64,000 nucleotides of DNA, from positions 2,046,001 through 2,110,000 of the forward strand of contig NC_014962.1 of NCBI RefSeq assembly GCF_000186345.1, in the 5' to 3' direction. Positions 3,142 to 15,426 of this stretch are shown here, in pieces. The notes under the pieces were generated by a model, which worked only from the letters and a program-made list of their open reading frames with translations, was not told the origin of the DNA and made no database searches. The first letter of the stretch is position 1. Each line of letters begins with the position of its first letter. The translations under genes and the position numbers were made by a program. This DNA comes from Isosphaera pallida ATCC 43644. GTDB lineage: Bacteria > Planctomycetota > Planctomycetia > Isosphaerales > Isosphaeraceae.

Positions 3142-6100
3142 CTAACCCTCCTCGCGGAGCAGCTGCTGGCGAAGGGCCATCTCGCGGAACACCCCGGGTT
3201 CCCGAATCAATTCCTCGTAGCGACCCTTCTGGACAATCCGGCCTTCCTTGAGAACGTACACCCGATCGGCCCCCATAATCGTACTCAGGCGGTGAGCGAT
3301 CACCACCCGCGTTACTTTGAGCGAGGCGATGTGGTCGGACACCTTTCTCTGGGTCGGATTGTCGAGCGCACTGGTAGCCTCGTCGAACAACAACAACGCG
3401 GGCTTTTTGACCAAGGCTCGAGCGATGAACAGGCGTTGACGTTGTCCTCCAGATAGGGTGGCCGCTCCCTCGCCGATGACGGTGTGCATCTGCATCGGCA
3501 TGGCCGCGATGTCTTCGGCGATGCCCGCCAGACGGGCCGCCTCCCAGGCGTCCTCCATTGTCAAGGAGGAGGAAAAGCCGACGATGTTGGTGTAAAGGTC
3601 GCCGGGCATCAGCTGGGTATTCTGCAGCACCACTCCCAGTTGCCGCCTCACGTCGTACAGATCGAGGGTCGCCAAGTCTTTGCCGTCGTAGGCCACGACC
3701 CCCTCGGTTGGTCGATCGAACCCTAAGAGCAGCCGAAACAGGGTCGATTTGCCGCTGCCCGAGGGGCCCACCAGCGCCACGAACTCGCCTGGCAACACTT
3801 GAAAGTCCACTTGGTTGAGCACCAAGGGACCGTCATCATGGTAGCGGTACGAAACTCGGGATAGCGACACTGCCCCTCCCAGGCAACCGACTTCGGCTCC
3901 GGGATGTTCCTGCTCGACCGGGGTTTCCAACACGGGACGGATTCGGTCGTAAATCGGAATGACCGAGACCATCGAGGCCAGCAGGTTACCCAACGACAGC
4001 GCTGCGCCGACGAAGCCGAAGAAGGCGAAGTTGAAGGCCAGGAAGTGGCCCACCTCCAGCCCGCTGGCCACCAGCGAAACGGTCGCGGCATAGAGAATGG
4101 CCATAGTCGCTAGGGGAAATGCCGCGTAGAACAACGCCAGACGGTTGGCGATCACCCGCCCCCGCCGGGTTTGCTCCACTTGCTTGACGAACACCTCGCT
4201 CCAACGCGCGAAGGCGCGACGCTCCGCTGCCGCCACTCGAATCCGCGCGATCCCCGCCAACAGTTCCAGCAACAGACTGGAAACCTCCCCCTCCAGGGCG
4301 CGGATGCGTCGTTGAATCTGGACGTACCGACCAATCAGAAAAAAGGTGATGGTGGTCATCGCAACGACCAATCCGAGCGCCACGAGGGCGAGAATTGGTT
4401 GATACCAGAAAAGGAGAATCAACGCGAACGACGAGGAGAGGAAGCTCAGCACGGTGTTGACGGTCGCTCCCGAGAGTAGACCCAGCACCGTCTCGAAACC
4501 AAGGAGGCGATGGGCGAGGTCTCCGGCGCGTTGTTCGGCGAAGAAGCGGGTTGGGAGGCGCAACACCCTGTCCCAGATCGCGGGAAGCAGGTGGGTGGCA
4601 AGCAAGCCTTCAATCCGCAACACGGCCCGTCCTTGGAAGAAGCGGAAAGCCCCGATCATCAGGGCAATCACCGTGATCGCGCCGCAGAGCAACGCCAGGC
4701 GGTCGAGTTCGGCGGCAGGAACCACCTGGTCGATGATCAGCCCCAGGGCGATGGGCGGTATCAGAAGCAGCAGGCCCACCACCACCCCCAGCACGAGAAT
4801 CCAGCGAAGTTGGCCTCGAATCACCGGCCATGAGAAGGTCAGGAGGTCGCGCCAGGTGAGGGTGTGTCCGGGCAGACCGCGGTAAAACCGATAAGCGTAA
4901 GGACTCAAGGCAACGGGTTGTCCGGGGGATTGGGCCGAGGCGGAAATCGGGGCGTTCGACTCGCGGGAGGGTTCGCGGCAGCGGCCAGCAGATCGCCGGG
5001 CGGGACGCTTGCGTCTCCACCAGGTCCGGGGATGGAATTGGATCCTTGGCTGGGACTCGCCGTGGAAACCAGCATGCTGGTTGGTGGTCGTCGAGCCGTT
5101 GGTGGCCAGGTTGCGGTGGGTAACGGCGGCAGGTTGATCGTGGGTCCGAGCCGACGAGGGAGGAGGGTAAGGAATGCGGCCGGGATGGGAGGGATCGAAG
5201 AGGTCGTAGCCATCGCCCGAACGGTTGGGCAGCAAGGCGACCGGGCGTCTCAGTGGTTCGAGAAAGGCGAGAAGCGGACCGTTCTCCGCCGCGCTCCGCC
5301 ACCAGTCCGAACGCAGACGAACCCGGCGGGCGTGAAGACCACTGGCGTGCCCCAGTTCGGTCAAAGGGTCCGACACCCCCTGGCCCTCCCTCAAGCTCCT
5401 CGGCGGCTTGACTTCGATTCCAAAGACGCTGGCCACAGCACGATAGGCCGCCAACAGCGGTTGGCCGCCGCCTACGTCAATCGGCACATGGTTGTTCCGT
5501 TCCTGGAGTGGGGCAATTAAGCGATTCAACGCATTGCCCAACGCCGCCTCGTCTCGCAAGCTCGAAGCTCGCGCGATCCGATTGCGTCGCATGGCAACCC
5601 CGCGGCCGATCTGAGCGGCGTAACGGAGAACGACCTCGTGGAACAGCTTCAAACCAATCCAAGGGTCTTGATCTTCAAGAAGACGCTCGGTTGAGCGGCA
5701 TCTGAGGATCGAAGCGGTCTCGGCTTGAATCCAGGTACCGGGGGCCAGAGGAAATCGGGCCTCGTCTTCGTTGCGGGGAATCGTGACCTCGCCCAGGAAT
5801 CGCAGGCTCCCCTGGCGGGGCCACACCCAAACCACTCCGGAGCGGGGACGGGCGAGGTCGCCTTCGGCCAGGACCAGGTCGTCCTTGAGGTCCTCGACCC
5901 GAAATCGGGGTGGCTCGCCAGCCAACCCCCGCGACATCGCCTCGATCCAGCCGTCGATCCACTGAGCCAACTGCCAACGCAAATCATCTTCGAGACCCAA
6001 ACGAATCAAGTCGCCGCGATGCACCGAGCGCAAACGGGCCTCACCCACCCCCACCGCCAGGAAGGAGGCTCCAGCTGGTCCCCGCGTGGCTCCCACACCG

Positions 6101-8976
6101 AAGATCGCGCCTCCTTCCAGAATTCGGCAAAGGTGACGACGAGTTTTCGCAGCCTGATTCGCTTCAGACTGAAGAAGAAACACATCGACTTTTCCCCCGA
6201 TCACCTGCCAAACGCGGTTGGGGTCGTCGAGAGGCACCGGCGAGCGTCCCGAAACCACGAGTCGGCTTGTCCGATCGGAGCGATCGAGTTCCCGCTCCAG
6301 GTTAAGCGGAGTCAGGGAATCGTCTCGCTCGGGGGACTCTTTCGCACTCCCGGTCCATCCCGAGGCCAGGGCATCCTCGGGCGAGGGATGGATGATGGCG
6401 GCCCGACGCGACGACGTCACCTGAGCATGGTGGGTTCGTCCGGTCTTTCGACGGCGGGGTAATGATTGGCCCTGAGTGGCCTGGCCCTGGGGGTCCCGTC
6501 CAATCGATGACTCGTCCTGTTGGATCAGATTCCAATACTCCCCCCGAAGATCAAGCAATTCCTCATGGGTTCCGCGCTCCACGACCTTCCCTCGACGCAG
6601 GACCACAATTTCGTCGGCGTCGCGGATGGTGCTGAGACGGTGAGCAATGATCAAACAGGCGCATCCCCGTTGACGGATCGCGTCGTCTACCTCTTCTTCG
6701 GTTTTCGGGTCCAATGCGCTGGTCGCCTCATCCAAAATCAGGAGACTGGGGTCACGGGTCAAGGCGCGGGCGATCTCCAGACGCTGACGTTGACCGCCCG
6801 AAAAGTTCAAGGCCGCTTCGCGGATGGGGCTGGCGTAACCTCCGGGGCGCTTGATCAGATCACCGTGAATCCGGGCGTCGATCGCCGCTCGTTGGATCAT
6901 CTCCTCGGGAATCGTCTCGTCCCAGAGGGTCAGGTTCTCACGGATGGTTCCCGCGAACAAAAAGGTGAATTCGTCCACAATGCCCAAGGAGTTGATCATC
7001 GTGGCTCGGGGGAGGGCAGCGCGGGGCCGTTGATCGAACAAAATTTCCCCAGACCAGGGTTGAAGGAGGCCGACAATCAGCTTGCCAATGGTCGATTTGC
7101 CGCTGCCAGAACCACCCACCAACGCGATCCGCCCTCCGGGTTGAATGGTCAGATTGAACCCCTCCAGAAGCGGAGGACCATAGCGCTGGTAGCCGAAGGT
7201 CACCTCGCGGACTTGCACCAGACCCGACAGACGGGGAGGAGGACGACGTGCGGGTCGAACCACCGGCGTCTCGATGTTCACCGGATGCCAAGCGGCTGCG
7301 CATGTCGCAACAACCGTGGCGGATTCGCCGCCGGCGGGCGGGGCTTTGGGAGAAGGAGAAGCCGTCAAATCGGTCCAAGAGGGTGGCAAGGGAGGGCTGG
7401 CGCGAGCGGCAGACCCGACGGAGTGCGAGGGCGGCAAGGTGGTGGGGTCCGGGTCGTGGTGGATCACGTCGTTGAGACGGTTGAGATCGGCTTCGAGTTC
7501 CTGGGTGGTCGTTCCAATCCTCACCAGATCGTTGAATGGCTGCAAAAACGAGGCCAGCAAGGTCTGCATCGCCAGCAGACCGCCAATCGATAACGTCCCC
7601 TCGACCACGTGCGCTCCGCCCAACCCCAACACCGCGGCCGTGGTCGCCACCCCTAAGGTCGCGGGCAAGGCCAAAAGCGCAGCATCCGCCATCCCCAAGC
7701 GTTGACGCGCGTTGATCAGACGGGTCTGAAATCCAGTCCAGCGCACCATCATGTCCGCTTCGGAGGCGGAGGCTTTGATCGTCTCGATCGTCTGCACGGC
7801 AAAGGTGAGGCTGGCGGTGAGCTTACCTTGAAGCTGGGAGATTTTCTGCTTTTCCTCCGATCGCCAACGGGCGACCAGCTGCACCCCCAACAGGTTGAGC
7901 GACCCCAACGCGATTCCCGTCAGGGCCACCTGGGGATCGATCGAAATCATCACCACACCAAAGAAGACCACCATCAACAGCGAGATTGCCAGCGTGGCGA
8001 ACTCGCCGGCGACGACCCGGGCGATCCGGGGGTTAGCCGTGATCCGCGACGCCACATCACCGGCAAACCGTTGATGAAAAAATGACATCGGCAAATGCAA
8101 TACCCGCCAGAGGACTCGACTGGTCTGGCGAGTCGTCAAGCCCAACTCAAGTTGGAGCAGCCGGTTTTGTTGCAACCAGAGCAAGACCACCCGCGCGATC
8201 ATCGTGAAGAGCATGACAATCAGCAGGGGCCGGAACCAATCCCATTGACCGGCGATCAGAATCGCGTCTACAAAAATTTTGCCGAAGACCGCGCTGAGGA
8301 TCGACGGCACCACGCCCATCAACCCCAGAGCGAAAACCAGACTCCACAGACCACCCGCCCCACGGGACCATCGAATCAACTCCTCAGCCAACGAGGGGCG
8401 GCGGCCCCCCGGTTTGAGGGTCCCGCGCTCGAACCGAAAGGTGGGTCCGGTGAAGGAACGGTCGAACTCCTCGTCATCGATGACCCGATGACCGCTTGCC
8501 GGATCGTTGAGGTAAACTCGCCCGCGCCGAAATCCCTCAACCACCAGGAAATGATTGTTTTGCCAGAAGACTACGAACGGCGGAGCCAAACGTCGGACCT
8601 GACTGGCCTCGTAGTGACGGGGCTTGACCTCGAGACCATACTTGCGAGCCGCCTCCACCATCAAACGGGCTTTTGTTCCATCCCGCGACACCCCGCAATC
8701 AATCCGCAGCTGTTCCAACGGCACATATCGACCAAAGTGGAGCAAAATGATCCCCAACGCCGCCGCTCCACATTCAGATGCCTCCATTTGAAGGTAAACG
8801 GGGGTGCGAACCCGTCGGTCGCTTTGGGCTCGTTGTCGTTTACGACGACTGGCCTCCACACCCAACCTTCGCCAGAGGTTCCAGCCCCACCGGCATGATC
8901 GCTTGGAAGGGGTTGTCGCGGTGGAGGTCGAGGAAACGTCGGATTCGGCCGGAACGGAAACAGCGGGTTCGCTCAT
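3142..8976 (-). CDS. Fused NHLM-type bacteriocin peptidase/ABC exporter plus second ABC exporter
   Basis: This 1944-residue protein combines what are normally two NHLM exporter proteins. Residues ~57-185 form a C39 peptidase that would cleave double-glycine leaders: Cys69 in [12 protein letters not shown], His142 in NNHFLVVEG and Asp158 in LNDPASG. A six-helix ABC membrane domain (~205-480) follows, then a proline-rich linker (~505-585), then an ATPase domain with Walker [10 protein letters not shown] (~621), signature [10 protein letters not shown] and [12 protein letters not shown] linker (~830-900) leads to a region resembling the cyclic-nucleotide-binding fold (~915-1050), a long middle region, a second membrane domain from ~1375, and a second ATPase (Walker [10 protein letters not shown] ~1738, [20 protein letters not shown]). 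All catalytic motifs are intact. It follows the HlyD-like gene by 75 bases, which suggests co-transcription. No clear Shine-Dalgarno is seen before ATG 8976. Confidence 0.9.
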
Positions 8977-9051: not shown

Positions 9052-10761
9052 TCACCAGACAGGGGGTTCCAGCTGAGTCTCACGTTTGAGCCAGGGAAGA
9101 ACCAAACTCAGCAGCGGTTGGGATTTGACCTTGATCGAGGCGTCGCACAGAGTCCAAGGCTCTACGACCTGGGCGTTGCCCGAGCGGGACGACCAAACCA
9201 GACGGTTGACCCAGTTGGAACCGTCCGGCTTGACCCAGAACGGCAACGTCTCGTAGCGCGCCAGTTCAATCGTCACCAACGTGAAGACTCCCGGCGTTCC
9301 CGTGACCTGATGAGCGACTCCCATGGATCCTTGAAGAAACTTGCTCACCAAGGCGGGATGCTTCAAACGGGATAAAACGGCGTCCTCGGTCGCGGGGAGG
9401 TTCGACAGATTGACGACCCGGCCCCGAATATAGCCGTATTCGACCCGCCGAATCGTCGTGGGACTGATCTCCACCTCTTGGTCAGGACGAATCCGTTTCC
9501 CGTCTTCGGTAGGGACGAACACCAACGCCACCTTGAGGTCGTTGCGGCGAGGTTCGGACTGGTCGGGGTCGATTCGCTCCAGCAAGGCGATGGGCTGGCC
9601 TTCCTCCACTTTGGCCCCCACGCTCTTGAGGATCGCGTGGACGTGGTACTCCTCGAATTCCGGTTCCGGTTGGTTCGTTCCGGTTGGAACGTGGAGAGGG
9701 GTTCTCTGCGTGTTTGACAACCCTCGCTCGGTCTCCTCGCCAGAAGGAAGGACCGAGCGGCTTGGGACGGGATTACCCTGAGCGTCGAGTTGCCTCAAAT
9801 CGACAAAGGTCACCAGCGACTTGCGACCATGCCGCGCTTCCAAAATCCGACATTCATCTTCAAGACGCGCGATGGCGAGCTGACGCTTGAGCTGTTCTTC
9901 ACTCCTTTGATCCTTCTCCTTGAGGAATTCGTATTCCAACTGGCTCAATTCGCTGAGGGCCTGGCCCCGTTCGTTCTCGGCCTGATCGAGTTGGATCCGG
10001 GCCGCCAAATATTCCTGACGGTTGACATTGCGGGCGTCGCGGCTCATCAAGAGATCGAGAGCGCGCATCTGCTCGCGTGATAGGGCAATGCGCCGATCGG
10101 CCAGTTCGATCAAAAGCTTGAGCGTCTCTTCACGTTTCCGCTTGGCCTGGGTTTGGCGTTGTTCGCGTTCGTGCTCCTGGCGGGTGAGTTGAGCGTCCTC
10201 CCACCGGGCGCGTTCCAGTTCGCGGCGTTTTTCCTCGACCTGATCCAGCAGATCCTCCTGAGCCAGCACCGCGAAGGCGGGGCGATGCGCCGGACTGGAA
10301 CGGTCCGGGTAGGGTTCCACGACTTCGAATCCGCCAGTGCGTGGAGTCCGACGAATGCGTTGTCCCTCACGCAGGTGAACCTCGATGAGGATGCCACCTG
10401 CGGGGGCGACCACCTGGGCCAGACTGTCCGGATCGACCAACAGCAGACCACGGCCGTGGACCTTGGTGGGCACCTCGTAGAGCAACGAGAACACCAACGT
10501 CAGCACGGTCAGGATGGTCAGAAGCGCCACAATCAGCCAGGGTCGGGTGGTGCTGAGGGTCAGCAACCCATCGAGTTGCTCGAACGCCTCAGGATGGTGC
10601 AATTCGATCTGGCGGGCATTCGTGGCACGGTCTTGGGACGCCGGAATCCCAGGGGTGGTGGGAGCAGCGATTGGAACCAAGGATGGGGAAGACGGCGAGT
10701 CGGCGGACAACACCCCGCTCGCAGGGAGGTCCGATTCGAGGATGCGTCGTCCTCCCGGCAT
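9052..10761 (-). CDS. HlyD-like adaptor of an NHLM-type peptide secretion system
   Basis: The 569-residue protein has a disordered N-terminus, one transmembrane helix (~74-95), and a periplasmic part that starts with a lipoyl-like half domain (APAGGILIEVHLREGQ). A long helical hairpin (~165-290) follows, rich in Glu, Arg and Gln, then the second half of the barrel and a C-terminal beta domain. This is the membrane fusion (HlyD) layout, and the neighbouring exporter places it in the NHLM secretion family. It would link the inner-membrane ABC exporter to the outer envelope. The start at 10761 has GGGGAG about seven bases upstream. The gene lies between the ArgZ-like gene (64-base gap) and the exporter (75-base gap), all on one strand. 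Confidence 0.86.
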   Translation of the reverse strand: MPGGRRILESDLPASGVLSADSPSSPSLVPIAAPTTPGIPASQDRATNARQIELHHPEAFEQLDGLLTLSTTRPWLIVALLTILTVLTLVFSLLYEVPTKVHGRGLLLVDPDSLAQVVAPAGGILIEVHLREGQRIRRTPRTGGFEVVEPYPDRSSPAHRPAFAVLAQEDLLDQVEEKRRELERARWEDAQLTRQEHEREQRQTQAKRKREETLKLLIELADRRIALSREQMRALDLLMSRDARNVNRQEYLAARIQLDQAENERGQALSELSQLEYEFLKEKDQRSEEQLKRQLAIARLEDECRILEARHGRKSLVTFVDLRQLDAQGNPVPSRSVLPSGEETERGLSNTQRTPLHVPTGTNQPEPEFEEYHVHAILKSVGAKVEEGQPIALLERIDPDQSEPRRNDLKVALVFVPTEDGKRIRPDQEVEISPTTIRRVEYGYIRGRVVNLSNLPATEDAVLSRLKHPALVSKFLQGSMGVAHQVTGTPGVFTLVTIELARYETLPFWVKPDGSNWVNRLVWSSRSGNAQVVEPWTLCDASIKVKSQPLLSLVLPWLKRETQLEPPVW

Positions 10762-10825: not shown

Positions 10826-12142
10826 TCATCCTTGAGCATCGCGACGCGAACTTCCTGAAGATCCTTCCGCGGTCGGGATCAATTCCTCCGCGAGGGTGCG
10901 GAGGAACGGCTCGACGTCGGTCACCAGACCCACGGTCTGAAAGGTACCGCGGTCGCTCAGCTTGGTGACGGTCGCCGGGTTGATGTCCACGCAAACCACT
11001 GTCACCCAGGCTGGCAGCAGGTTACCCACGGCGATGGAGTGCAGCGCCGTGGCGATCATCAGCGCGATGCCGACTCCGCGGGAGGCTTGCCTCATTTTGG
11101 ACTGGGCGACCAGAACATCGGTGATCACGTCGGGCAGCGGCCCATCGTCGCGGATCGAACCGGCCAGGATCGTCTCGACTCCCGCTTTGACGCATTCGTA
11201 CATAATCCCCGATGTGACGATGCCCGCGGCGACCGCCTGGGGGATCCCTCCGACTCGTCGGATGGTGTTGATAGTTCGAAGGTGATGTTCGTGACCGTGT
11301 TCCAGCGCGTCGCCCAATTCGAGCGACACCCCCAGGCTGGTCCCATAGAGCGACTGTTCCAGGTCGTGGGCTGCTAAAGCGTTGCCCGCGAACAGGGTTT
11401 GAACCCAGCCGTGACGTATGAGGCGGGCCAGGTGATGAGCCGACCCGGTATGAACGATCGCTGGGCCGCCCACCACGAGGATTTTCTCGCCCCGCTGCTT
11501 GCAGCGCCTCATTGCCTCGGCGACCGCCCGGAAACTGACCGCTTTGGGTTTCTCGCTGGAGACTTGCGATCCCATGAACCGGAATTGATCGCTCCGAACA
11601 CGTTCGATCGGGAAGACCCGCACACCCTGGTGACCCACCACCACCGGTATTCCAATTTTGACCTCGTTCATTGGTAGACAGCGGGGCCGTTGGGTCGTCG
11701 GATCGATCACGATCCCGCAGTCCATCTCCTGATCTTCCACGTCAATCCAGCGGCCTCCCAGCCTGATTTGGGTCTTCAGATTGGAGGTGCAGTAAAACCC
11801 GTCGGGGAACGCCCCAGAAACGTCGGCTGGGACGAGTTGGGCGTCCACTGGTTCGACGGGCTGGGCACCGTGAACCAGCAAGTCGCCCAAAATCTCATCG
11901 AGGACCGCTTGCGAGCCAGCGGAGACCCGGATCAGAGCATGGCTGGGATCGACCCGGCGACGCCCAATCCGACACTCCTTGATCTCGAAACTTCCACCCA
12001 ACGCAAGAATCCGGTCGAGGATCTTGGGTAGCAACAAGGAATCGACGATATGCCCTTCAACCGTCACTTCCTCGACAAAAGGATGACGGTGGGTGACGTC
12101 TTGATCCACTTCCGGGGTGGGGATTGGGGTGGGTGTGGTCAT
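10826..12142 (-). CDS. LOR/SDH-domain protein, TIGR00300/ArgZ-like (possible ornithine cyclodeaminase or related enzyme)
   Basis: The 438-residue cytoplasmic protein matches the LOR/SDH (TIGR00300) family. Its N-terminal ~110 residues are an alpha/beta region (EGHIVDSLLLPKILDRI, LGGSFEIKECRIG). The C-terminal part contains a nucleotide-binding-like segment (ILVVGGPAIVHTGSAHHLARL), LFAGNALAAHDLEQSLYGTS, GHEHHLRTINTIRRVGGI and SIRDDGPLPDVITD, all typical of this family. Characterised members include an archaeal ornithine cyclodeaminase and the cyanobacterial arginine-degrading enzyme ArgZ/AgrE. Which reaction this one performs cannot be told from sequence. I chose ATG 12142 (MTTPTPIPTP) over an upstream in-frame ATG at 12220, because GAGG lies nearby and the added residues look unlike protein. 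It may be the first gene of a unit with the export genes downstream. Confidence 0.85.
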   Translation of the reverse strand: MTTPTPIPTPEVDQDVTHRHPFVEEVTVEGHIVDSLLLPKILDRILALGGSFEIKECRIGRRRVDPSHALIRVSAGSQAVLDEILGDLLVHGAQPVEPVDAQLVPADVSGAFPDGFYCTSNLKTQIRLGGRWIDVEDQEMDCGIVIDPTTQRPRCLPMNEVKIGIPVVVGHQGVRVFPIERVRSDQFRFMGSQVSSEKPKAVSFRAVAEAMRRCKQRGEKILVVGGPAIVHTGSAHHLARLIRHGWVQTLFAGNALAAHDLEQSLYGTSLGVSLELGDALEHGHEHHLRTINTIRRVGGIPQAVAAGIVTSGIMYECVKAGVETILAGSIRDDGPLPDVITDVLVAQSKMRQASRGVGIALMIATALHSIAVGNLLPAWVTVVCVDINPATVTKLSDRGTFQTVGLVTDVEPFLRTLAEELIPTAEGSSGSSRRDAQG

Positions 12143-12602
12143 CACCGGGGAGCCTCGAGAGGAACGGAACTCCGACGAAATGCGCAACAGAACGTGAAAC
12201 AGCGACTCAACCCATCGCAAAAGGAAGGAAAGAGAAGCCGCTCCACCGACACGCCGCGGATTTCGAGCGGAGGGGATGAATCAGGCTGGCGAAGGTCCGT
12301 CACAAGTGGCCGCCAACGCCGACAGCGACCAGTTTGGGATGACGAGAACACCTTCCTCCCAAAAGATTGTAGCAGTTAAACGCCTTGAAGGAATCACGCA
12401 AAGGGGTTCGTAAGCCAAGGCGGTGCGTCGGGGTGGCGGACCGAGCAACCCCGTAGCTCGGGAAGGTTGCGAACGGGTACACTGCGGGATGATGTTGAAC
12501 GAAGCGGCCCACCCGCCAAGGCTCGGGGCCGGCGGAGCGGCCGGAGAGTGACGACGACTGGGCGTTGGCATTCACGACGCCCAAACAGGGGTGAGGGTTG
12601 CG
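12143..12602. other. Divergent intergenic region upstream of cbiM
   Basis: These 460 bases separate the minus-strand ArgZ-like gene from cbiM. A G+C-rich hairpin can form at 12527-12542 (GGCCG/CGGCC, six-base loop) about 60 bases before cbiM. I looked for the conserved B12 box of cobalamin riboswitches and did not find a convincing one, so metal or vitamin control by RNA is unsupported. Confidence 0.5.
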
Positions 12603-13796
12603 ATGCATCTTCCCGACATGGTGTTACAACCAGTTCCGACCGTGGTGTCCGGCGCATTGGGAGTGGCGGGGTTGGCTTGGGCGGTTCGTCGTTTGAGAGG
12701 TCGGGAAGGGGATCGGGCGACGGTGTTGATGGGTGCGATGGGTGCCTGCGTGTTCGCCGCCCAGATGGTGAATTTCCCACTTTATCCTTGGCCCATCTCA
12801 GGTCATTTGATGGGAGGGGTTCTGGCTGCGGTGGTCCTTGGTCCCGCGGCCGGGATCGCGGTCATGGCCTTGGTGTTGATGGTCCAGGCGTTTCTGTTTG
12901 GCGATGGCGGCATCACCGCGTTGGGGGCTAACTTCGTCAACATGGGTTTGATTGGCTCGGGAGTTGGTTACGCGATTTACGCCACCCTGAGGCGGCGGTG
13001 GGCCGGAGGTTTGGTTGGCCCTAACGCCTCCGAGGAAGCTCGGGCTCAAGATCAGCGCGCTGTGGTCATCGCCGCGATGGCCGCCTCGTGGTTTTCGGTG
13101 TTGCTGGCTTCAGGCTCGCTGTCAATCCAGTTGACCCTGTTTGGTCCCAACCCTGGCGATCTGCCGATAGTTCTGGGCTGGATGACCCTGGTTCACTGCG
13201 GCATTGGCCTGGGCGAGGCAATGATCACTGGTCTGGCTATCCGTTTCCTTCTCTTGACCCGGCCCGACTTGATCCCACCTCTGGAAACCGCAACGGCTCC
13301 TGGATTGACTTCGTCCACCACCAGCTCAGCCTCGGGACGCGCGACCGCAGTCTTCGGGGGGCTGGGTATTGCCTTGGCGATCGCAGCTTTCCTGGCTCCC
13401 CTGGCGTCGGATCATCCGGACGGCTTCGAGTGGACCGCCACCCGTTTGGGCTTTCTCGACCACGAAGATCAACCCGAGGACCAAGGGGATCCGGCCGCCC
13501 TGGTCGCCGCCGAGGGTCCAGCTGGTCTCGGTCAGGAACCAGCCAACGAGCCGGCCCGCCCGCTGTACGAAGCCCCCTTACCGGACTACGCAATTCAGGT
13601 GGAGGGACCGTTAGGCGACTGGTTCCGCGACGCTCCCAGTCTCTCCACCGCGATTGCCGGCATCATTGGCACCCTCACGGTGTTTCTGGCTGGTTGGATC
13701 ATCGCGCGGGGTCTGGAAACCCGACGTCCCCCCACCCAGTTCAATCCCACCCCCACCGATCCTCAAACCGGAGGCGTCGGTCCTCATGTGGCGTGA
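12603..13796 (+). CDS. cbiM: Cobalt/nickel ECF transporter substrate-binding protein CbiM with CbiN-like tail
   Basis: This 397-residue membrane protein begins MHLPDMVLQP, the CbiM/NikM N-terminus whose Met-His ligands enter the metal site. That fixes the start at ATG 12603 rather than GTG 12591, and AGGGGTGAGGG sits just upstream. The first ~220 residues hold about seven membrane helices, with signature segments NFPLYPWPISGHLMGG and LGANFVNMGLIGSG. After a variable segment, a CbiN-like part follows with a membrane helix and the PDGF motif (SDHPDGFEWTA) equivalent to PDGLE, then a C-terminal helix. It would capture Co2+ or Ni2+ for uptake, and the metal cannot be decided from sequence. The Gly normally after PD at position 6 is Met here. 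Its end overlaps the next gene by 11 bases. Confidence 0.9.
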   Translation: MHLPDMVLQPVPTVVSGALGVAGLAWAVRRLRGREGDRATVLMGAMGACVFAAQMVNFPLYPWPISGHLMGGVLAAVVLGPAAGIAVMALVLMVQAFLFGDGGITALGANFVNMGLIGSGVGYAIYATLRRRWAGGLVGPNASEEARAQDQRAVVIAAMAASWFSVLLASGSLSIQLTLFGPNPGDLPIVLGWMTLVHCGIGLGEAMITGLAIRFLLLTRPDLIPPLETATAPGLTSSTTSSASGRATAVFGGLGIALAIAAFLAPLASDHPDGFEWTATRLGFLDHEDQPEDQGDPAALVAAEGPAGLGQEPANEPARPLYEAPLPDYAIQVEGPLGDWFRDAPSLSTAIAGIIGTLTVFLAGWIIARGLETRRPPTQFNPTPTDPQTGGVGPHVA

Positions 13797-15426
13797 TCTC
13801 GGGGCGGCCTCTGCGCCTCCGGGACCGTTGATTGATTTGGAGCCCCGGCTCAAAATCCTGGTCACCTTGGGTTATGTTCTCACTGTCGCTGCGTTGCCGC
13901 CTTCGTTCTCGACTTCGTTGGCGGTGGCGGCAGTGGTTCTGGCCTTCGTCATTGGTTTGGCTGGGATCGAGCCTTCTTGGCTCTTCCGTCGCTGGTTAGC
14001 GATCCTTCCCGTCGTAGGCCTGTTCGCCCTGATGGTGGCCCGCACCCACCCCTTGCGTGCCGAGTGGGGTTACCTCCCTGTCGCGCTGGCCTTTGTCGGC
14101 AAAAACGCCCTCGCGGTGTTGGCAGTCCTCACCTGCGCGGCGGTCACCCCGTGGGTTCAGTGGTTGCGGGGATTGACCCGCCTGGGCGTCCCGTTGATCC
14201 TGCTTTCAGCGCTGGCAATGATGGGACGCTTCGCTGCGATTCTCCGCGACGAAGCCACCCGCATGATTCAAGCCCGACGCGCCCGGACCTTCTGCCGCGC
14301 GGGGTTGGACTGGGCGATGCGGGCTGGTCTCATCGCCGCGTTGCTTGCTCGCGCTTTGGAGCGTGGCGATCGCCTCCACGCCGCCTTGCTCGCCCGCGGT
14401 TATCGCGGCGAACCCGATGCCGGTCTGCCTCTGACCGACGACCCGCCGCCGCTTGGGCTGCCCGATTGTCCCCTTCCGTTTTCCCATCCTCCCGCGCGTC
14501 CCGTCCTGATGAATTCCGTCGAAGTTCCGCCACTCGTCGAGGTTCGCGCCCTGACGTATCGTTATCCCGATGGGCGGCTCGCCCTACGCGACATCTCCTT
14601 TTGCATCCAGCCCGGCGAAACCATCGCCCTCATCGGACCCAACGGCGCGGGCAAAAGCACTTTGCTTTGGCACCTCAACGGACTCCTACCCGAGTCAATC
14701 CGCTCAGCCCGCGACTCGATCGGCGACCACAGCCACAGCCTGGAACTGTTGGGGCGGTTGGTGTGGAACGAGAACGATCCATCAAACCCCGTCACCGACG
14801 ATGCCGAAACCAACGGCAACTCAGGCAGCTCCAGGAATGCGACGATCCACGTCGGGGGACTGCCGATCACGCCCACCAACGCCCGTGAGATTCGCCGCCG
14901 GGTTGGCCTGCTCTTTCAAGATCCCGACGACCAACTCTTTGGCGCGACCGTGTTGGACGATGTCGCCTATGGTCCCCGCCAACTCGGCATGAAACGACGC
15001 GAGGCTCTGGAATACGCTCGTCACTGCCTGGCCCTGGTGGGTTTGAATCCCTCGGAGTATGAGGACCGCCCTCCCCATCACCTCAGCTTCGGCGAAAAAA
15101 AACGCGCCAGCCTGGCCGGCGTCCTGGCCTGTCGTCCCGATCTGCTAGCGCTCGACGAACCCACCGCCAACCTTGACCCCCGCGCCCGTCGCCGTCTGAT
15201 CGAAATCGTCCGCAGCCTCTCCTGCGGCAAGCTGATCGCCACTCACGACTTGGACATGGCCGTGGAGCTATGCGACCGGGTTTTGCTGCTCGACGGCGGA
15301 CGCTTGATCGCCGAGGGTCCTACCCTCGAGATTCTCGCCCGTCACGACCTGCTTGAAGCTCACGGCCTGGAAACTCCACCTCTGTTGGAACTACGAGCGC
15401 TTCGACAACGCCTCAAGAGCGAGTAA
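13786..15426 (+). CDS. Fused ECF transporter CbiQ-CbiO (membrane and ATPase subunits)
   Basis: This 546-residue protein joins the T component CbiQ to the ATPase CbiO. Residues 1-~225 are a membrane protein with several helices and two CbiQ coupling-helix segments around MGRFAAILRDEATRMIQARRAR and RALERGDRLHAALLARGY. From about residue 245 an ABC ATPase follows: Walker A GPNGAGKST, Q-loop LLFQDPDDQLFG, LSFGEKKRASLAG in place of the canonical signature, Walker B LLALDEPTANLD and switch His in IATHDLDMA. A roughly 50-residue insertion rich in Asn, Asp and Ser follows Walker A. The start at ATG 13786 overlaps the end of cbiM, which suggests translational coupling. With CbiM it forms a complete two-gene Co/Ni importer. 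Confidence 0.9.
   Translation: MWRDLGAASAPPGPLIDLEPRLKILVTLGYVLTVAALPPSFSTSLAVAAVVLAFVIGLAGIEPSWLFRRWLAILPVVGLFALMVARTHPLRAEWGYLPVALAFVGKNALAVLAVLTCAAVTPWVQWLRGLTRLGVPLILLSALAMMGRFAAILRDEATRMIQARRARTFCRAGLDWAMRAGLIAALLARALERGDRLHAALLARGYRGEPDAGLPLTDDPPPLGLPDCPLPFSHPPARPVLMNSVEVPPLVEVRALTYRYPDGRLALRDISFCIQPGETIALIGPNGAGKSTLLWHLNGLLPESIRSARDSIGDHSHSLELLGRLVWNENDPSNPVTDDAETNGNSGSSRNATIHVGGLPITPTNAREIRRRVGLLFQDPDDQLFGATVLDDVAYGPRQLGMKRREALEYARHCLALVGLNPSEYEDRPPHHLSFGEKKRASLAGVLACRPDLLALDEPTANLDPRARRRLIEIVRSLSCGKLIATHDLDMAVELCDRVLLLDGGRLIAEGPTLEILARHDLLEAHGLETPPLLELRALRQRLKSE

Follow-up and report, generated by a model that had tools for sequence, protein, structure and literature searches.

NHLM/NHLP peptide exporters have been described (PMC2887384) and are recognized by models for a peptidase subunit of the ATP-binding cassette (ABC) type (TIGR03796, here ABC1), a permease/ATPase subunit (TIGR03797, ABC2) and an HlyD-type adaptor (TIGR03794). 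In the peptidase-containing ABC transporters (PCATs), the C39 domain is reported to bind the leader peptide while the cargo is threaded into the channel, with cutting coupled to transport (PMC6959990, PMC8277102). PCAT1 is described as having two identical halves, each with a peptidase, a transmembrane domain (TMD) and a nucleotide-binding domain (NBD), and only one of its two bound substrates was positioned for cleavage (PMC6959990). HetC of Nostoc, a half transporter, carries a cyclic-nucleotide-binding-type domain that binds ppGpp in vitro according to PMC10986499, which places both soluble ends in the cytoplasm. Here we describe a gene of Isosphaera pallida ATCC 43644, at 3142-8976 on the minus strand of a 64,000-nucleotide stretch of its genome (NC_014962.1, positions 2,046,001 to 2,110,000; the window), which joins ABC1 and ABC2 of an NHLM-type exporter in one frame of 1944 aa.

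The locus resembles the NHLM/NHLP exporter of PMC2887384 in that both halves exceed their cut-offs and an HlyD-type gene adjoins, but differs in encoding one polypeptide rather than two, in the loss of the Q-loop glutamine of the first NBD and in that searches of the genome yielded no precursor of the NHLP or Nif11 type. A C39-TMD-NBD half with its catalytic triad is shared with PCAT1 (PDB 4ry2, 6v9z), which came up when the sequence was compared with solved structures; here, however, one working arm and one predicted C39-like arm belong to a single chain. As in HetC (PMC10986499), an ABC exporter of the C39 type bears a cyclic-nucleotide-binding-type domain, although in the fused protein that domain is a prediction. 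Eukaryotic ABCB exporters, such as P-glycoprotein and the yeast a-factor exporter (PDB 7qkr), which exports a peptide pheromone, also have two TMD-NBD halves per chain. We infer that the eukaryotic fusion was an unrelated event. To our knowledge, full-length eukaryotic ABCB exporters have neither C39 nor cyclic-nucleotide-binding-like domains. The machine is of a known kind, and its new part is the one-chain, family-wide and recurrent fusion of a known exporter. No published ABC1-ABC2 fusion was found among the literature matches listed.

The frame runs from an ATG to a stop codon and encodes an NHLM_ABC1 part (C39 peptidase-TMD-NBD) followed by an NHLM_ABC2 part (TMD-NBD); frame 1 of the plus strand across 3142-8976 contains many stops. 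Pfam found one Peptidase_C39 stretch, in the first half, together with two ABC_membrane and two ABC_tran stretches. Scored alone, residues 1-830 reached 890.8 bits against TIGR03796 (equivalog cut-off 853.3) and residues 880-1944 reached 783.0 bits against TIGR03797 (cut-off 709.4), so that the proposal of the earlier note, two NHLM exporter proteins fused in one frame, holds with each half above its own NCBIfam equivalog cut-off.

All features of the fused gene lie on its own (minus) strand. The C39 peptidase domain (aa 57-180, 8437-8808) matched Peptidase_C39 at 102.6 bits over residues 58-179, and its Cys, His and Asp are kept in all six open fused proteins of the family that were aligned. 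TMD1 (aa 213-481, 7534-8340; ABC_membrane and hydropathy) is separated from NBD1 (about aa 585-819, 6520-7224; Pfam and alignment) by a low-complexity insert rich in Pro, Ser and Ala (aa 508-582, 7231-7455), which is longest in the window protein among the six fused proteins aligned. A variable linker between ABC1 and ABC2 (about aa 831-903, 6268-6486) aligns poorly and is open in all six proteins examined. It leads into predicted tandem cyclic-nucleotide-binding-like domains (about aa 891-1102, 5671-6306) and a predicted C39-like domain (about aa 1169-1270, 5167-5472). Before TMD2, alignments and AlphaFold mark a low-confidence, low-complexity insert (4924-5154) that is missing from the five other fused and 13 unfused proteins aligned. 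TMD2 (about aa 1385-1680, 3937-4824) corresponds to the second ABC_membrane stretch and the hydropathy profile, and NBD2 (about aa 1703-1937, 3166-3870; Pfam and motif comparison) has canonical motifs.

The fusion is real and family-wide. In a sample of 45 Isosphaeraceae genomes, in which an ABC1 was counted if it exceeded the TIGR03796 cut-off, it was present in all seven genomes with such an ABC1, the window's included, and these belong to five genera. Six of the seven are open frames of 1793-1948 aa from stop to stop; in the seventh (G015) the junction is fused as well, and a single in-frame TGA interrupts the ABC2 part ahead of TMD2.

Outside the family the two proteins are normally encoded separately, as had been supposed. 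The outside sample covered four phyla, with 83 genomes holding an over-cut-off ABC1: 23 planctomycete genomes (24 with the window's own) of 392, one more (G436) in a class sample of 248 genomes, 37 of 386 Cyanobacteria, 8 of 398 Pseudomonadota and 14 of 396 Actinomycetota. The cyanobacterial, pseudomonadotal and actinomycetotal samples are the phyla of G605, G600 and G603, respectively; G600 and G603 were sample centres picked for carrying an NHLM system and are included in the counts. On the length of their open frames, which did not exceed 1330 aa, 81 of the 83 have an unfused ABC1. Both genes were found apart in 13 of the 14 planctomycete loci fetched (of 23), an ABC2 not being found beside the remaining one (L082), and they are also separate in G436 and in G1160, where ABC1 is a frame of 1273 aa and ABC2 another frame. 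ABC1 is split over several frames in G735 and G741, and the best plasmid match, from Kovacikia, is unfused. A contig scan with generic ABC patterns, which is not a census, found no frame with a C39 match longer than 1076 aa among the 80 matched loci listed. The two true fusions are cyanobacterial, G780 (1623 aa) and G928 (1746 aa), with each half above its cut-off; fused cyanobacterial NHLM exporters lie at L219:8101-13338 (plus strand) and L218:4315-9183 (minus strand). The presumed rarity of the arrangement consequently stands outside the family (two of 83, both cyanobacterial) but not within it, where fusion is the rule (7/7).

Quick ABC1 trees, with support from the Shimodaira-Hasegawa-like approximate likelihood ratio test (SH-aLRT) only, placed the seven family ABC1 proteins in one group (SH-aLRT 99), apart from the two cyanobacterial fusions. 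Forcing all nine fused ABC1 proteins together was rejected by the approximately unbiased (AU) test (p-AU 2e-5, quick tree of 58 rows). A single common origin is thus rejected on this quick tree, which indicates that the fusion arose at least twice, the second time in cyanobacteria. The cyanobacterial pair grouped together in one quick tree (82) and fell apart in the other, which corresponds to one or two origins there. In the last tree the unfused rows nearest to the fused group were L079 (G381) and L171 (G436), with modest support (81); L171 was absent from the first two trees. Rows L206 and L217 were dropped as repeats, and L103, L098 and L172 were dropped from the AU test for their long branches. 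Separate ABC1 and ABC2 genes lie end to end: in 11 planctomycete loci (L074, L087 and L088 were left out of this count) the two frames, each measured from its first start codon, are spaced by -136 to +22 bases, so that fusion would be a short step. The cytoplasmic location of both soluble ends reported for HetC (PMC10986499) likewise implies that a tandem fusion is topologically easy.

A rival explanation, that assembly or sequencing error removed a stop and a start between two ordinary genes, draws on the separate genes in 81 of the 83 genomes with an over-cut-off ABC1 sampled beyond the family. The window genome, however, is 99.97% complete, with 5,529,304 bases (5.53 Mb) in two contigs, and the same fusion recurs in six more family genomes whose linkers differ and whose ABC1 parts are about 48% identical to the window's. 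Shuffled linkers were free of stops in 17-72% of cases, so that an open linker in a single genome means little and the weight falls on these other genomes. The homologues fused in the same order, for which the earlier note had suggested a search, therefore exist, and its two possible refutations, a sequencing error near 6350-6550 and a single assembly artefact among unfused orthologues, fall with them. An error in the window assembly is ruled out by the six further genomes, and we give an artefact of this kind virtually no credence.

A real fusion could still behave in more than one way. We consider it probable that the gene encodes a full-length NHLM-type ABC exporter in which a peptidase half (ABC1) and a peptidase-less half (ABC2) form a built-in heterodimer within one chain. 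The single frame, the domain order, the conservation across the family, the C39 triad and the replacement of the Q-loop residue in NBD1 can all be read directly from the sequences, and a built-in heterodimer with mildly unequal ATP sites would be their most natural reading; pairing as a fixed 1:1 heterodimer is most likely on the anatomy of the chain. The chains might instead pair into larger assemblies with ATP sites between them, a solved HlyB entry (7sgr) containing six copies of its chain and the halves being able, in principle, to pair in trans. No sequence feature favors trans pairing, however, and a linker of about 70 residues permits pairing in cis, which makes such assemblies unlikely. 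Slightly less likely again is a protein made as one chain that acts as two, either through proteolytic cutting of the linker or through an internal start that yields free ABC2. Such behavior would suit a long and variable linker with in-frame GTG, TTG or ATG codons in all six proteins examined; yet these codons share no position and no clear ribosome site, the window linker has a single in-frame GTG, and there is no sign of cleavage.

The predicted inequality of the ATP sites can be followed in the motifs. Both NBDs of the window protein retain Walker A, the Walker B Glu, the signature and the H-loop, and to this extent the description of all catalytic motifs as intact was correct; at the Q-loop position of NBD1, however, Gln is replaced by Glu669 (codon at 6970-6972). 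The comparison comprised 63 rows, nine of them fused, with at least two genomes represented twice and L211 not parsed. The glutamine is replaced in all seven fused family members, by Glu in the window protein, L069, L072 and L073 and by Ala in L070, L071 and L074, and is present in all 54 unfused ABC1 rows. The nearest unfused rows, L079 and L171, keep Gln, which places its loss on about the same branch as the fusion. In NBD2 the signature reads LSSGQ in three of the seven family members (L070, L071 and L074) and ISVGQ in the cyanobacterial fusion L219, as against SGGQ in 36 of 37 unfused ABC2 proteins; the D-loop of NBD2 is altered in L069 (SSLE). One ATP site is described as the Walker A, Walker B, A-, Q- and H-loops of one NBD together with the signature of the other (PMC7756269). 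Under this scheme all of the Q-loop and signature changes fall on site I, formed by the Walker motifs and Q-loop of NBD1 and the signature of NBD2, with Gln lost in 7/7 and the canonical NBD2 signature lost in 3/7, and none falls on site II, whose NBD1 signature and NBD2 Q-loop are canonical in 9/9 fused proteins. Every degenerate site of human transporters is reported to include an altered NBD2 signature (PMC7756269).

It is conceivable, though we hold the idea only tentatively and think it somewhat more likely to be wrong than right, that bacteria have repeatedly built full-length, obligately asymmetric peptide-processing exporters with one cutting arm, one dead arm and one ATP site that erodes after fusion. 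A number of observations count against this and against the main reading of a built-in heterodimer with unequal sites. The loss of the Q-loop Gln was a single event within a single clade; the two cyanobacterial fusions retain this residue, and in L218 neither the Q-loop nor the signature is altered. The canonical NBD2 signature of the window protein itself also weighs against them, as does one unfused ABC2, L089, in which the signature is changed to LAGGQ. Both NBDs of the fused proteins keep the Walker B Glu (in DEAT or DEAS) and the H-loop His, and according to PMC7544095 the hallmark of a degenerate site is the absence of this Glu; replacement of the Walker B Glu in one NBD, as in degenerate sites of the TM287/288 type, was not seen in the fused proteins. 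Gln-to-Asn changes in the Q-loop of MRP1 are judged in PMC7756269 not to be directly linked to hydrolysis or asymmetry. Outside the fused gene, the HlyD-type neighbor is diverged, at 126.9 bits against TIGR03794 (cut-off 156.2), and searches with TIGR03793 and TIGR03798 found no NHLP- or Nif11-type precursor in the window genome.

The N-terminal region of the ABC2 part gave no significant Pfam match in the seven proteins searched. AlphaFold modeled this region with a mean predicted local distance difference test score (pLDDT) of 67 (14 sequences), and the first 251 residues of the ABC2 part at 76.6 (nine sequences). In the models, the first domain matched CRP-type regulators in their cyclic-nucleotide-binding fold, with a VIA-align Z of up to 10.9 (2.5 A over 112 residues), and residues 290-488 matched a C39-like domain (PDB 3b79; Z 9.5, 3.7 A over 112 residues), on a scale where unrelated proteins often reach a best Z of 7-8. 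The top Foldseek matches were tandem regulatory subunits of protein kinase A, with best E values of 1.9e-6 and 6.1e-7; their TM-scores of about 0.1-0.3 leave the mutual arrangement of the tandem domains unsupported, and the prediction is less certain for the second domain than for the first. Profile comparison of the C39 and C39-like domains gave no support for the match (4% probability). The ABC2 part lacks a working peptidase domain, as Peptidase_C39 matched only the first half and aa 1160-1275 of the window protein contain no Cys, which excludes cysteine peptidase activity for the C39-like domain. Should the fold match hold, one peptidase-type arm of the chain would most likely be working and the other dead. 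The same N-terminal region is present in unfused ABC2 proteins and is therefore not a product of the fusion.

These features suggest how the exporter may work. The two halves would fold back on each other as a single 1:1 transporter of the inner membrane. The C39 domain at the N-terminus would bind the leader peptide, cleave after a Gly-Gly-like site and pass the remainder into the channel, with the C39-like domain of the ABC2 part serving as a docking or gating arm that does not cleave; the cyclic-nucleotide-binding-like domains, if the models are right, may sense a ligand. ATP would close the NBDs, and the HlyD-type neighbor together with an outer-membrane channel would carry the peptide out. 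Fusion would fix the 1:1 stoichiometry and forbid homodimers, and the fused family appears to tolerate alteration of one ATP site, site I, while site II keeps both its Q-loop and its signature.

The HlyD-type adaptor gene (9052-10761, minus strand; TIGR03794) lies directly upstream of the fused gene, 75 bases before it. An HlyD homologue is close by in six of the seven fused loci, lying within about 2.3 kb in five of the six others; at the seventh, where none was seen, the contig stops at the fused gene. Just upstream of the HlyD-type gene is a gene for a nickel-pincer-dependent ornithine cyclodeaminase (10826-12220, minus strand; TIGR00300, 526 bits). A second joined ABC transporter frame is found further along the window, where a CbiQ and an ATPase domain are combined in 590 aa (13654-15426, plus strand). 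A CbiM-PDGLE frame (12591-13796) comes before it, and the joined frame might represent a fusion of CbiQ with CbiO.

In one precursor search of the window's own genome no control gave a match either, but the same model matched peptides in G019 and G116. A three-row NHLP leader model for the family found no precursor for the window exporter in the 45 genomes, the window, the 20 kb preceding it or the fused loci; its one match inside the fused gene (E 0.3) is attributable to chance. This family model matched in seven of the 45 family genomes. Two of these, G015 and G019, have the fused exporter (an NHLP leader scored below the cut-off in G015 and above it in G019), and five (G009, G010, G012, G043 and G044) have no over-cut-off ABC1, so that precursor and exporter co-occur poorly. 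NHLP-leader peptides with Cys/Gly-rich cores were noted at L190:1270-1857, L196:1420-1824, L189:1417-1857 and L192:1411-1818 (G019, G015 and G043). The below-cut-off TIGR03793 matches in G601 were read as a true nitrile hydratase subunit and not as precursors.

The natural fusion suggests that ABC1 and ABC2 of NHLM systems function as partners in a 1:1 ratio, a point that the account in PMC2887384 does not appear to settle. The fused gene offers a single-gene construct for studying 1:1 pairing in which each half can be changed separately, and the fusions that arose independently, in which only one ATP site shows changes of Q-loop or signature, provide a natural test of whether linking the halves leads to unequal sites. 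If the repeated fusions with an eroding site prove to be true, they would parallel the unequal sites gained by fused or heterodimeric transporters of eukaryotes.

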